Notes under the pieces: generated by a model
What the model saw: only the letters and a program-made list of their open reading frames with translations
What the model was told of the DNA's origin: nothing
Database searches by the model: none
Program-made: the position numbers and the translations under genes
Source of the DNA: Bdellovibrio bacteriovorus W
GTDB taxonomy: Bacteria; Bdellovibrionota; Bdellovibrionia; Bdellovibrionales; Bdellovibrionaceae
Direction: 5' to 3'
Length of the DNA stretch: 64,000 bases
NCBI GenBank assembly: GCA_000525675.1
Contig: CP002190.1
Span: forward strand, 682,001 to 746,000
Shown here: positions 1-32,984 of the stretch, piece after piece
Layout of the letters: each line of letters opens with the position of its first letter
How positions within the stretch are numbered: the stretch's first letter is position 1

Positions 1-264
1 GAACTCTCCGCCGCGCATCTGAACCCTTTTGACCAAACGAAGCTTTCTGGCTTGTGAAAAATGGGGGCTTGCCCTGCCGAAGCTTTAGCGAAGGCAGGTG
101 CTTTGTTTTTGGGCAGAACGTATAAAACTTCCTTAAAACTCTGTATTTTGGCTCTCTGTCTTTGAGGGGGGCTCTGAGAAGGCTTTGGTGAGCCTATTTG
201 GCGTGACAAAGTCGTGTCTTTCCGATTAGATAGGACCGATTTTGCACGAAAATTGGAGATTTCA
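1..264. other. Non-coding leader with repeat remnants
   Basis: No gene is seen before the E1 alpha start at 265. Positions 6-33 match the right end of the 121-bp elements found at 3351-3609, and 50-66 resemble their left end in degenerate form, so this is probably a decayed junction between two such elements. A stem CCTGCC/GGCAGG spans 73-98 and is followed by a T-rich stretch; it could end transcription coming from outside the window. No convincing promoter for the next operon could be assigned. Confidence 0.5.
73..98 (+). terminator. Hairpin, possible terminator
   Basis: Six-base stem CCTGCC/GGCAGG with the loop region GAAGCTTTAGCGAA, then TGCTTTGTTTTT. The T run is interrupted, so termination is only possible. 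The same stem sequence recurs inside the first 121-bp element (3365-3390), which argues that it belongs to the repeat family rather than to one gene. Confidence 0.35.
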
Positions 265-2515: not shown

Positions 2516-3340
2516 ATGACTAAAGCAAAAGCGACTAAGAAGAAAAAAGCAAAAAACGAAGTGTTTGTATTTGATAAATATGAACTCTATCGCAAAGCGG
2601 TTCAATCGGCAGAAAATGATGTCGTTTTTATCAGAGATACTTTTAGAAAATTAAAAGGACGTGATCCTTTTGTTTTCAGAGAAGACTTCTGCGGCACTTT
2701 TGCTCTTTCTACAGAGTGGGTTAAGCTGAATGAAGAACATGAATCTATCGGGGTTGATCTTGATCCAGAACCGATGGAGTACGGGAAGCTTCACTACCTG
2801 ACAACTTTAGATGCTCCTCAACAAGATCGTATGACTTTGATCAACGGTAATGTTCTTGATCCAAAACTTCCGAAAGCAGACATCGTCTGTGCTATGAACT
2901 TTTCTTATTTCTGTTTTAAGACTCGCGAGATGATGAAGCAATACTTTGCCAATGTTTATAGAACTCTTGAAAAAGACGGTATGTTCATGGTCGATCTATT
3001 CGGTGGCAGTCAATGTTACGATGCTATCGAAGATGAAATTGTTCACGATGGATTTACGTATTACTGGGATCAGACGGGTTTTGATCCAATTGCAAATGAA
3101 GCTGTTTTTCATATCCACTTTAAAATCAAAGGTAAAAAAGTTGAAAACGTATTTACCTACGATTGGCGCATGTGGAGCATTCCTGAAATCCGCGATATCA
3201 TGAATGAAGTCGGATTTAAAAAGACTCACGTCTATTGGGAAGGCACAGCTGCTGATGGATCTGGCAATGGCGAGTTTACTCCTGCGAAAGTGGGGGAGGC
3301 GTGTCAGAGTTGGATAGCCTACGTCATCGCCGAAAAATAA
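2516..3340 (+). CDS. Class I SAM-dependent methyltransferase with Lys-rich N-terminus
   Basis: 274 residues. A Rossmann SAM-binding region is visible: EDFCGTFALSTEW, then ESIGVDLDPEP (acidic end of strand 2), NGNVLD, and ADIVCAMNFSY (post-II). Substrate unknown. It sits 14 bases after the E1 beta stop on the same strand, so it is likely co-transcribed with the dehydrogenase, an association I cannot explain from known pathways. The first 14 residues are Lys/Ala-rich, echoing the tail on E1 alpha two genes upstream. ATG 2516 has GGGAAG just before it. No clear terminator follows; repeats begin at 3351. Confidence 0.75.
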   Translation: MTKAKATKKKKAKNEVFVFDKYELYRKAVQSAENDVVFIRDTFRKLKGRDPFVFREDFCGTFALSTEWVKLNEEHESIGVDLDPEPMEYGKLHYLTTLDAPQQDRMTLINGNVLDPKLPKADIVCAMNFSYFCFKTREMMKQYFANVYRTLEKDGMFMVDLFGGSQCYDAIEDEIVHDGFTYYWDQTGFDPIANEAVFHIHFKIKGKKVENVFTYDWRMWSIPEIRDIMNEVGFKKTHVYWEGTAADGSGNGEFTPAKVGEACQSWIAYVIAEK

Positions 3341-3350
3341 AGCTTCGGGC

Positions 3351-3471
3351 GGTTCGTGAAAAGGGCCTGCCTGCTTTGTTGTCGGCAGGCTTTCTCGCTC
3401 CGACGTGCTTAGAGCACGCCTGCGCTGCGAGAGCCCACCTCCGCCGCGCACTCAGACCCTTTTGACGAACC
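3351..3471. repeat. 121-bp structured repeat element, copy 1
   Basis: Element bounded by imperfect inverted ends GGTTCGTGAAAAGGG and CCCTTTTGACGAACC (14 of 15 pair). It contains stem CCTGCC/GGCAGG (3365-3390) and stem CGTGCT-tag-AGCACG near the middle. Copy 2 has exactly the same length. It resembles a non-autonomous MITE-like or BIME-like element. Reading frames on the minus strand across it are low-complexity Arg-rich and are judged spurious. Confidence 0.75.
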
Positions 3472-3488
3472 TTTGGTTCTGGGGTGGC

Positions 3489-3609
3489 GGTTCGTGAAAA
3501 GGGTCCATCTGCTTTGTTGTCGGGCTCCGTCCTCTCTCCGGCGTACTTGGAGTACGCCTGCGTTGCGGGCGGCACCCTCCGCCGCGCATCTGAACCCTTT
3601 TGACGAACC
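3489..3609. repeat. 121-bp structured repeat element, copy 2
   Basis: Same inverted ends and length as copy 1, with a 17-bp spacer between them. The central stem reads GGCGTACT-tgg-AGTACGCC, where the G-C pair of copy 1 has become A-T on both arms, a compensatory change that supports selection on the folded form. The first hairpin of copy 1 is lost here. The end is followed by a T run. Confidence 0.75.
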
Positions 3610-3653
3610 TTTTTTTTGGAGTAGGGTGGTGTGTGTTTACAGAATTGAATAAT

Positions 3654-3668
3654 AATAAAAGGGTACCT
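3654..3668. repeat. Left arm of palindrome interrupted by the IS
   Basis: AATAAAAGGGTACCT, the perfect reverse complement of 5047-5061. If the insertion sequence and one GATC copy are removed, the two arms face each other across a 12-base loop, so the original site was a strong hairpin, perhaps a bidirectional terminator or a REP-like palindrome. Confidence 0.7.
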
Positions 3669-3751
3669 TTGATCTGTACCCCAAAATCCGGACACAAAAA
3701 TAAAAGACCCTGTCCAGTTTTTGGGGTATTTTCGTATTTGAGAGGCAGATC

Positions 3752-4156
3752 ATGGGTTCATTTACAGCAAAAGATCGCAAAGATCTTGAGAACAATCAAA
3801 ATGTTTTAAAGGTAACAACCTCTAACGTTACCTATACTCCAGAGTTTAAGGTTAAGGCTTTGAAGCTCCGTCAAGATGGGCTAATGCCTTCAGAAATATT
3901 TAAAGATGCCGGAATCAACCTTTCTCTCTTCGGCAAAGACTACCCCAGAAAGTGTATCCAGCGTTGGGCGAAGATGTCTCAAAAAGACGGTGGATTAAAG
4001 AAGGAGCGTCGAGGAGTTAATTCTACTGGGCGCCCCAAGGGGCTTCGGTTTAAATCAGCAGAAGAAGAAATTGCTTATTTGCGCGCGGAGAATGATTTCC
4101 TAAAAAAGCTCCACGCCTTGGAGGCAAGATACGCAAACAAGAAAAGTTCGCGTTAA
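3752..4156 (+). CDS. IS3-family OrfA, DNA-binding transposase subunit
   Basis: 134 residues. A helix-turn-helix region lies near residues 25-70 (start YTPEFKVKALKLR), and a leucine-zipper-like coiled coil near 105-130 (AEEEIAYLRAENDFLKKL), the usual OrfA plan for binding the terminal repeats and dimerising. It ends inside orfB, which is in the -1 frame. The heptamer AAAAAAG at 4102-4108 lies in the right phase for programmed frameshifting into orfB. Confidence 0.85.
   Translation: MGSFTAKDRKDLENNQNVLKVTTSNVTYTPEFKVKALKLRQDGLMPSEIFKDAGINLSLFGKDYPRKCIQRWAKMSQKDGGLKKERRGVNSTGRPKGLRFKSAEEEIAYLRAENDFLKKLHALEARYANKKSSR
4102..4108 (+). promoter_or_regulatory. Programmed -1 frameshift heptamer A AAA AAG
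   Basis: AAAAAAG in the phase ctA AAA AAG relative to orfA, the standard IS3-family slippery site. A small stem CTCCA/TGGAG (4109-4123) follows directly and may stimulate slippage, though it lies closer than usual. Confidence 0.75.
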
Positions 4157-4998
4157 TTCACGAGGCAATAATTCACCAGCCTGATCTGCGTCTCGATCGG
4201 CTATGTAAGCAAGCTAAAGTAAGCACGAGTGGATTTTACGAATGGTCTGCGAAGAAGAAAAGTTCTCAAGAAGCCATTTTCGATGAAGAGTGGGTCTGTA
4301 TCCTTTTTGAAAGTAAAAAAGGTAGGATCGGTGCTCGCAGCATAAAGATGCTTTTACAGAAATATTTTTGGATCAATATGAACTTAAAGAAAGTCCGTCG
4401 TCTTATGAAAAAGCATGGACTTCGAACTGTCATCCGCAGAAAGAATAGATCTAGGCAAGTTTGGGTAGAAGGAGATGAACATAGAGCAAGCCCGAATATT
4501 CTTAATAGGAATTTTAATGTCCAAAAGAAGGATACTGTGTATTCGACAGACATTACTTATCTTGATTATGGACTTGGAAAACGAGCTTATCTATCGGCAG
4601 TAAAGGATTTGGCAACGAAGGAGATCGTGCATTACACCGTTTCAGCAAGTGCAACTTTAAATATCGCACTTAGGGGCCTCGAAGATCTTTTTAGTCAAAA
4701 GCCCAAACATATCATTATGCACTCAGATCAAGGCAGCCACTATACTTCAAAGATCTATCGAGATTTATTAAGCAAGTGGGAAATAACTCAATCAATGTCA
4801 CGTAAGGGAAATTGTTTGGACAATGCTCCGATAGAAAGTTTTTTCGGACATTTAAAAGATGAGGCAGAGCTTCGAGATTGCAATACATATGAAGAGTTGG
4901 TAGCAGAGATAGATCGTTATATTAAATACTATAATAACGAACGACCCCAATGGGACTTAAAAGGAAAAACCCCGGCAGAGTGCCGAGGTTTTACTTAA
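4102..4998 (+). CDS. IS3-family OrfB, DDE transposase (made by -1 frameshift from OrfA)
   Basis: This frame is open from 4096 and has no convincing start of its own near its beginning; the first ATG (4348) would cut off the conserved N-terminal part that includes STSGFYEW. I therefore read it as the second half of an OrfAB fusion formed by a -1 shift at 4102-4108. The rve integrase core shows TDITY (first Asp), HSDQGSHY (second Asp) and IESFFGHLKDE (Glu), with 35 residues between the second Asp and the Glu as in IS3. A CGGCA/TGCCG stem followed by TTTTA overlaps its last codons. Confidence 0.85.
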   Translation, partial: KKAPRLGGKIRKQEKFALIHEAIIHQPDLRLDRLCKQAKVSTSGFYEWSAKKKSSQEAIFDEEWVCILFESKKGRIGARSIKMLLQKYFWINMNLKKVRRLMKKHGLRTVIRRKNRSRQVWVEGDEHRASPNILNRNFNVQKKDTVYSTDITYLDYGLGKRAYLSAVKDLATKEIVHYTVSASATLNIALRGLEDLFSQKPKHIIMHSDQGSHYTSKIYRDLLSKWEITQSMSRKGNCLDNAPIESFFGHLKDEAELRDCNTYEELVAEIDRYIKYYNNERPQWDLKGKTPAECRGFT

Positions 4999-5046
4999 GA
5001 GGCCCTTTTATTTATCTGTCCACTTTTTGGGGTACAGATCACTTTT

Positions 5047-5061
5047 AGGTACCCTTTTATT
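5047..5061. repeat. Right arm of palindrome interrupted by the IS
   Basis: AGGTACCCTTTTATT, perfect partner of 3654-3668. It lies just past the 3' end of the minus-strand gene 5090-6109, so the intact hairpin would have been well placed to end that gene's transcript. Confidence 0.7.
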
Positions 5062-5089
5062 TGTATGTGAAAATGTTGCTTCGTTTTTC

Positions 5090-32027: not shown

Positions 32028-32984
32028 TCAGCTGCCAAAATGTTTAAAGCCTCTGAGTTCTTCCAAGGCAACACTGCTGTTTTCTTTTTCAAGAAAAACT
32101 CCGGCCGCATCGGTAAACTGGCCAACTAGATGCCATTCTTGGAAATGCTGATAGGCCTCTGGCGAGACGGCTGCTAATAACTGATAATCTTCACCACCCC
32201 ACAGGGCGAGGTCCTCGCTGGAAACACCCATGCGATCAGCTACCTTTGGAGTTTCGGGGTGAAGTGGAAGGTTCTCGGTAAAAATCTTCAGTCCCCCTTG
32301 GAAGGGAATGAGTTTGTAGGAGTCCACGACAAGCCCATCACTACAGTCCATCAAAGCATGAATATGTTGAGAATGCTCTTCGAGCATTTTTAAAAGATCC
32401 CAACGAGGGCGAGGACGACGATGTTGATTTTTGACGAAGTCAAAATCGGGCCAAGAGTTTGTGAGAGCTATCAGTCCTGCCGCCGATGAGCCGAGGGGGC
32501 CACTACACAGAAGTAAATCTCCTGGTCGTGCCCCTTTTCTAGGAATGGGATTTTCCACAGAACCCATAACGCTAACATCGACAAAGATCGGCCCCGGAGA
32601 GGCCGTTAAATCTCCACCAACGATCTGACATTGGCACTGATCCGCCAACTCCGCCATAGAGAGGTAAAAGTCTTCAATCCATTCATCGGAAATTTCTTTG
32701 GGAATGGCTAAAGAGACTTGAGCAAAATGAGGCGTTCCACCCATGGCGACAATATCACTGATATTCACAGCCAGAGATTTATATCCTAAATCCGCAGCAC
32801 TCGTGTATTCGCGCTTAAAGTGTATTCCTTCAACTTGCAGATCCTGACACCAAACGCTTTTTCCTGAGAAGTTTTTATAGACAAAAGAATCATCTCCCAA
32901 AGGAATCACAGTATTGGGATTGGAGCGATCTACGATCTTATTGATCTTTTGAATGCGACTCCATTCAAGAGGAATTTTCTTCAT
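32028..32984 (-). CDS. thiL: Thiamine-monophosphate kinase
   Basis: 318 residues. Makes thiamine diphosphate from the monophosphate and ATP. PLGDDSF near 29, CQDLQVEGIHF near 50, AVNISDIVAMGG, IVGGDLTASPGPIFVDVSVMG and LMDCSDGL match the family order. GGAG before ATG. It follows ppx/gppA by about 38 bases. Thiamine diphosphate is the cofactor of the E1 enzyme at 265-2501, though not linked genetically. Confidence 0.93.
   Translation of the reverse strand: MKKIPLEWSRIQKINKIVDRSNPNTVIPLGDDSFVYKNFSGKSVWCQDLQVEGIHFKREYTSAADLGYKSLAVNISDIVAMGGTPHFAQVSLAIPKEISDEWIEDFYLSMAELADQCQCQIVGGDLTASPGPIFVDVSVMGSVENPIPRKGARPGDLLLCSGPLGSSAAGLIALTNSWPDFDFVKNQHRRPRPRWDLLKMLEEHSQHIHALMDCSDGLVVDSYKLIPFQGGLKIFTENLPLHPETPKVADRMGVSSEDLALWGGEDYQLLAAVSPEAYQHFQEWHLVGQFTDAAGVFLEKENSSVALEELRGFKHFGS

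Follow-up and report, generated by a model that had tools for sequence, protein, structure and literature searches.

A dispersed family of 121-nt covarying hairpins at gene ends in Bdellovibrio bacteriovorus W and its relatives

Two tandem elements of 121 nt in a 64,000-nt stretch of the Bdellovibrio bacteriovorus W chromosome (CP002190.1, positions 682,001 to 746,000 of the forward strand; hereafter the window) belong to a dispersed family of hairpins with covarying stems. Copies lie next to same-strand stop codons or past the T-runs of terminators, they are almost all co-oriented with replication in Bdellovibrio chromosomes, and individual sites are filled in one genome and empty in its sister. 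We give roughly even chances to the reading that this is a large (about 121 nt), non-autonomous, REP-like family of mobile palindromes, which would move as single-stranded DNA hairpins and be kept at gene ends.

Results

The tandem pair in the window

The two copies are equal in length and 80% identical, and both have the inverted ends GGTTCGTGAAAAGGG / CCCTTTTGACGAACC that the original prediction, made from the letters of the window, had described (Table 1). Their arms are fully paired save for one G.G mismatch at position 8, and their folding, compared with that of their own shuffles, gives z values of -5.1 (copy 1) and -5.3 (copy 2). The central pair said to be changed on both arms is indeed so changed; across own-genome copies this pair (58-66) is GC in 16 of 27, otherwise AU, and is broken in none. 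The claim that the sequences differ freely between the conserved end blocks did not hold, since most of the differences are of the compensatory kind and the middle of the element, with the core CGTTGTCGG ... CCTCCGCC.CGCAT, is its most conserved part. The remains at positions 1-66, which had been taken as a sign of spread in the genome, do bear this out, comprising the right end of a full copy and, in the rest, an apparent broken left end.

The methyltransferase-like gene upstream of copy 1 comes after a dehydrogenase E1 alpha/beta gene pair, and its orthologue in another Bdellovibrio genome (G003), 73.5% identical, likewise has a copy behind it. About 60 nt past copy 2 there is an IS3-like element (window 3649-5066, with HTH_Tnp_2 and rve proteins), the inverted ends of which are nested within a second inverted repeat, AATAAAAGGGTACCT / AGGTACCCTTTTATT.

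Table 1. Hairpin elements and neighbouring features, in window coordinates (genome coordinates in brackets)
Feature	Position	Strand	Basis or remark
Copy 1 of the 121-nt hairpin element	3351..3471 (685351-685471)	+	Model R1, 138.9 bits
Central covarying pair of copy 1, G3407-C3415 (copy 2: A3545-T3553)	3407..3415	+	Alignment of copies
Spacer between the copies, 17 nt	3472..3488	+	Length and G/T-rich composition as in the 3' tail after other copies
Copy 2, in tandem with copy 1 and in the same orientation	3489..3609 (685489-685609)	+	142.3 bits, best R1 match of the genome
T/G-rich, C-poor tail after copy 2	3610..3630	+	Probable extent in the window
Right end of one more full copy, truncated at the window boundary	1..38 (full copy 681918-682038)	+	BLAST and model
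Probably the broken left end of one more tandem copy (GGCTTGTGAAAAATGGGGGCTTGCCCTGCC)	49..78	+	Sequence read by eye
Methyltransferase-like gene upstream of copy 1	2516..3340	+	Copy 1 starts 10 nt past its TAA stop

Family size and distribution

The observation behind the original prediction is real, and the family is larger than was then reported. A genome search of the kind it had proposed gave 32 BLAST matches to copy 1 in the chromosome of 3,006,992 bases, and a covariance model (R1) built from 27 own-genome BLAST matches found 47 copies with covarying stems, which form 37 arrays (matches on both strands at one place were merged). Within the genus, the element is present in 21 of 24 genomes, three draft genomes having no copies, and carrying genomes have from 1 to 77 copies (77 in G008; broadly 10-80 per genome). 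The element was found in 28 of 142 sampled genera within the phylum.

Matches to the core pattern with the same architecture come from Bdellovibrio, Nitrospirae, Myxococcales, Acidobacteria, Eisenbacteria, Thermoanaerobaculia, Chloroflexi, and others, including metagenome-assembled genomes (MAGs). These matches score about 33-66 bits with R1, and several of the 47 core-pattern hits (e.g., L093, L113, and L130) resemble chance matches without a hairpin. Two Nitrospirae MAGs have 71 R1 matches each (E 1e-4; matches on both strands counted). Model R1 also found a related hairpin subfamily in Nitrospirae MAGs (L312, L318, and L301), the ends of which read CTAACA followed by GGCTGCTGAAAAAGTCC on the left and AGCTTTTTGAGCAGCC followed by TGC on the right. 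Viral contigs gave four core-pattern matches and plasmids one partial match, the latter on a Bdellovibrio plasmid: the 48-kb AP029178.1 of Bdellovibrio sp. HAGR004 has the element core at 32529-32596, and this plasmid could be a vehicle between strains.

In Rfam, nothing in the window reached the gathering score, and the element region gave only a chance hit (E 7.1), so that membership of a known RNA family was ruled out. The sequence strings of the family found no description in the open-access literature searched. Given the lack of both an Rfam match and a description, the family appears to be unannotated in many genomes.

Structure and covariation

In 100 distinct copies from the genus, the whole element is a single 121-nt hairpin. 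Compensatory changes on both sides are found in 31 of its 36 stem pairs, 96.5% of cells are paired as against 80.4% in shuffles, and double-changed cells number 633 as against 169, counts that lean towards structure because the alignment was fitted to the model. The covariation score of 0.470 drops to 0.158 on shuffling and to at most 0.10 when partners are slid, a slide of one base being enough to abolish the signal. The consensus had initially been predicted from own-genome copies aligned with MAFFT, and there 20 of 35 pairs were already changed on both sides. The ends pair and covary, which gives the element the terminal inverted repeats of a MITE. Some irregularities are also retained, namely the G.G opposition at position 8 in nearly every copy and the T.G pairs at alignment columns 30-108 (99 of 100 copies) and 45-96 (70 of 100).

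Covariation of this kind would say little on selection if replication errors simply copied one arm onto the other by sequence-independent template switching. Such a process would agree with the rarity of intermediates, as most pairs jump between two Watson-Crick types. However, it should erase irregularities, yet both the G.G at position 8 and the T.G pair at 30-108 survive; moreover, the core is conserved across phyla, and the intermediates are asymmetric by strand. Template switching is thus quite an improbable explanation. The view that these are members of a dispersed family under selection for structure, as originally proposed, is strongly supported by the many copies and their covarying stems.

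Which strand folds

If the functional molecule were an RNA of the top strand, i.e., in the sense of the upstream gene, then G.U single-step intermediates would be expected. Among the surviving mismatches of the outer stem in the 100 genus copies, A.C outnumbers G.U by 44 to 8, a modest count drawn from copies that are related to each other. A top-strand A.C reads as G.T or G.U on the bottom strand, and it therefore seems that folding of the non-coding strand is conserved, which argues against a structure in the 3'-UTR of the mRNA. The bottom strand is also the better folder in 96% of copies with RNA parameters and in 100% with DNA parameters, whereas the inner helices have no A.C/G.U asymmetry. 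A mutation bias of the strand with G>C would presumably push in the opposite direction. On this good but not final evidence, conserved folding most likely belongs to the bottom strand, the one antisense to the upstream gene and, in Bdellovibrio, the template of leading-strand synthesis. The two identities first suggested, a MITE-like family or an abundant structured RNA, thus fare differently: a MITE- or REP-like nature fits better, given the filled and empty sites described below, whereas the RNA alternative is weakened by the wobble counts. As a further form of the RNA idea, an antisense RNA may be made from the element.

Position at gene ends

Genes around all copies were called with a simple codon-usage gene finder. 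In this genome, the upstream gene lies on the same strand for 46 of the 47 copies, and 31 of the 37 arrays start in the range from 9 nt ahead of such a gene's stop codon to 10 nt past it. Several of the six other arrays start past the T-run of an intrinsic terminator, roughly 60-120 nt after the stop, and this class of placement is present in relatives too. Placement at stop codons is common to most copies in other Bdellovibrio genomes and many in Nitrospirae, and it is also seen for single copies from Chloroflexi and Herbihabitans. TAA, TAG, and TGA precede the copies of this genome in roughly genomic proportions, and a fixed target motif was rejected, as Bdellovibrio copies have no conserved motif upstream; these two facts leave the targeting of an enzyme unexplained. 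Nitrospirae copies carry a 5' tag, CTAGGA, and follow TAG stops in 13 of 15 cases, compared with 32 of 100 controls.

The same genes tend to be occupied in different genomes. Ten of 48 copies sampled from other genomes follow a gene whose orthologue here has a copy behind it, where about 0.5 would be expected (48 x 32 / 3000 genes), and one of the ten lies behind the orthologue of the methyltransferase gene in the window. Copies behind orthologous genes are no closer in sequence to each other than to other copies, and thus sequence identity does not distinguish descent from re-insertion.

Selection might set this position if the element acted in the mRNA, as a hairpin behind the stop codon that serves as a terminator, an exonuclease barrier, or a ribosome-proximal control. 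The recurrence behind orthologues and the tight spacing to the stop, with all three stop codons, would both follow from such a role. It would also account for two sites (L323 and L186) where the element occupies the place of the intrinsic terminator of the sister genome, and terminator-like sites are scarcer behind elements (4 of 29) than behind control stops (18 of 56; p 0.07). However, the wobble counts prefer the antisense strand, the near absence of copies from lagging-strand genes would be left unexplained, and at another site (L321) the element sits between the stop codon and a terminator that is still intact. Nor is there a terminator-like site in the window pair, since a scan of positions 3280-3700 found no GC-rich stem-loop with a T-run, the A/T blocks lying inside the stem. 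A gene-end RNA element is therefore unlikely to be the explanation.

Orientation to replication

With dnaA taken as the origin, 238 of 246 copies among the matches listed for ten complete Bdellovibrio chromosomes point along fork movement. All 47 copies of this genome, in 32 independent loci, do so. A mere by-product of gene orientation was rejected for Bdellovibrio, because 32 of 32 loci stand against 202 leading-strand genes among 325 sampled (62%; p about 1e-7). In the stretches sampled, GC skew switches sign where the orientation of copies does, and in G008 the switch in orientation pointed to an origin near 2.5 Mb, dnaA then being located at 2.535 Mb. The eight exceptions are seven opposite copies in G008 and one in G007, which sits in a segment of reversed local skew. 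One genome (G019), the copies of which would otherwise count as two for and five against, was left out of the tally owing to its scrambled GC skew. The skew of its single contig (L252-L269 and L272-L275) repeatedly flips sign, suggestive of a much rearranged chromosome or a misjoined assembly.

In the Nitrospirae MAGs, neighbouring copies face both ways, each along its own gene. The replication lock is thus not general and may be particular to Bdellovibrio. Inverted pairs of copies about 1.2 kb apart in Nitrospirae were considered as the flanks of a transposase, but this was rejected, as the genes are ordinary and each copy lies behind its own gene.

An oriented hairpin that, in the manner of KOPS or Chi, signals which way replication runs, be it for segregation, repair, or the restart of forks, would account for the near-perfect polarity seen in ten chromosomes and for the dispersal of copies over both replichores. 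It would fit poorly, however, with copy numbers that range within the genus from 1 to 77 and fall to zero in the three draft genomes, with sites that differ between sister genomes, or with Nitrospirae copies that track gene direction rather than the local direction of replication. A signal of chromosome architecture is accordingly a very improbable reading.

Filled and empty sites in sister genomes

Comparison of two sister genomes (G001 and G006; flanks about 89-96% identical) showed that most examined sites are common and three differ, and in a second comparison (G013 and G015) five or six sites differ. The flanks of filled and empty sites are 87-95% identical, and such presence and absence indicates gain or loss of copies within short periods. 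The junctions are not uniform. In one case (L320), the hairpin and a 23-nt tail take the place of 4 nt that immediately follow TAA, and in another (L324) the insertion likewise replaces 4 nt, whereas a third junction (L182:15700) can be read as a TAAA duplication. A T/G-rich tail comparable with that in the window lies inside the inserted DNA when the L320 site is set beside its empty counterpart (L329). At the L324 site of G015, compared with the L333 site of G013, the reading frame appears to continue across the inserted element from end to end, so that this copy may give the gene an altered C-terminal sequence.

Candidate enzyme

Most Bdellovibrio genomes have genes for Y1 transposases. One class of compact proteins (about 185 aa; alignment A2) matches Pfam PF01797 and falls under the NCBIfam cut-offs for IS200 and RAYT. 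In seven of 22 compact Y1 genes, an element lies 41-289 nt behind the stop, always convergent, and the chance of an element so near a random gene is approximately 1% (some 30 copies per 4 Mb). The RAYT-like Y1 class has no such link. Members of the compact Y1/HUH class (L210, L223, L216, L226, L230, L232, L235, and other loci of the alignment) are often convergent with an element, and genomes have several vertically shared paralogues, up to 11 in G015. In the genome studied here, no match to PF01797 or to the compact Y1 profile was found, and a classical RAYT system was rejected for it, with no Y1 found. G008, with its 77 copies, is likewise without the compact class, and copy number is thus not tied to it. 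An IS200/RAYT-like Y1 (HUH) enzyme is the likeliest mobilising candidate in the relatives, a lead rather than a finding.

Discussion

Under the reading that we prefer, that of a mobile REP-like palindrome, a single-stranded DNA hairpin would be the form in which the element is copied or moved, and the fold that matters would be that of the complement of the coding strand of the upstream gene. Some protein would recognise the hairpin, with its fixed mismatches and conserved core, and an IS200/RAYT-like Y1 (HUH) protein would be the first choice for this role in the relatives. Copies might gather at stop codons as places where they cause little damage, and the coincidence of the CTAGGA tag with a TAG stop could further favour such sites in Nitrospirae. 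The lock to replication might then result from selection or instability: copies would be kept where their strongly folding strand serves as the leading-strand template, which is copied continuously, and would be lost in the opposite orientation, in which that strand would fold on the lagging-strand template. Many copies would then stay with the same genes or come back to them.

A wider possibility, which we consider doubtful, is that the hairpins form a cross-phylum class of single-stranded DNA elements with a putative processing system of its own, placed at stop codons and restricted to one fork orientation because the folding strand has to remain the template of leading-strand synthesis. Such a class would link gene ends, the direction of replication, and hairpin processing. 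Placement at stop codons, the replication lock in Bdellovibrio, and spread across phyla are the surprising parts. With hundreds of copies, strand-resolved covariation, and an orientation bias that far exceeds the gene bias, the family constitutes a natural replicated experiment on chromosomal hairpins. It allows one to ask whether chromosomes tolerate hairpin DNA solely with the folding strand on the leading-strand template, and by what route mobile palindromes arrive at stop codons.

Comparison with known systems

IS200/IS605 elements have hairpins that are handled as single strands, and they show a replication-strand bias. Like these elements and MITEs, the family has hairpins, and related Y1 genes occur in the genus; unlike IS200/IS605, the entire element is one hairpin, and no autonomous element with such ends was found. 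ERIC and similar repeats of 100-150 nt are imperfect palindromes dispersed in intergenic regions. The element shares their length, imperfect palindrome, and intergenic dispersal, but it adjoins stop codons and is strand-locked. Identity by sequence with ERIC or E. coli REPs was rejected, as copy 2 had no match in 5,426 E. coli genomes (blastn, E 0.01).

A parallel for strand and orientation is the attC site of integrons (and of CALIN/SALIN arrays), a long imperfect hairpin right after a stop codon, of which the bottom strand folds and stays on the leading-strand template. Retention of attC bottom strands on that template, for stability (PMC11023631), is a precedent for the orientation argument made here. 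However, the element ends in GGTT...AACC, without RYYYAAC/GTTRRRY boxes (27 and 100 copies), its copies are single and scattered, and sister genomes have the same gene without it. The end boxes and the scattering of single copies ruled out membership of the attC/integron system.

With REP/REPIN sequences and their RAYT (TnpA-REP), the family has in common dispersed palindromes that are extragenic and mostly downstream of coding regions, conserved stem irregularities, an end that can supply a TAG stop, and Y1 genes that adjoin some copies in relatives. GTAG-type REPs often provide TAG stops for flanking ORFs (PMC3733652). In contrast to REPs, the element is about 121 nt long rather than 20-40 nt, Bdellovibrio copies are without the GTAG/CGTC tag (the Nitrospirae tag being CTAGGA), no Y1 gene was found in this genome, the element is locked to the direction of replication, and one core is common across phyla. 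Although it departs from the features that define REPs in its size, its tag, and the presence of a RAYT in the genome, the family behaves like a large REP.
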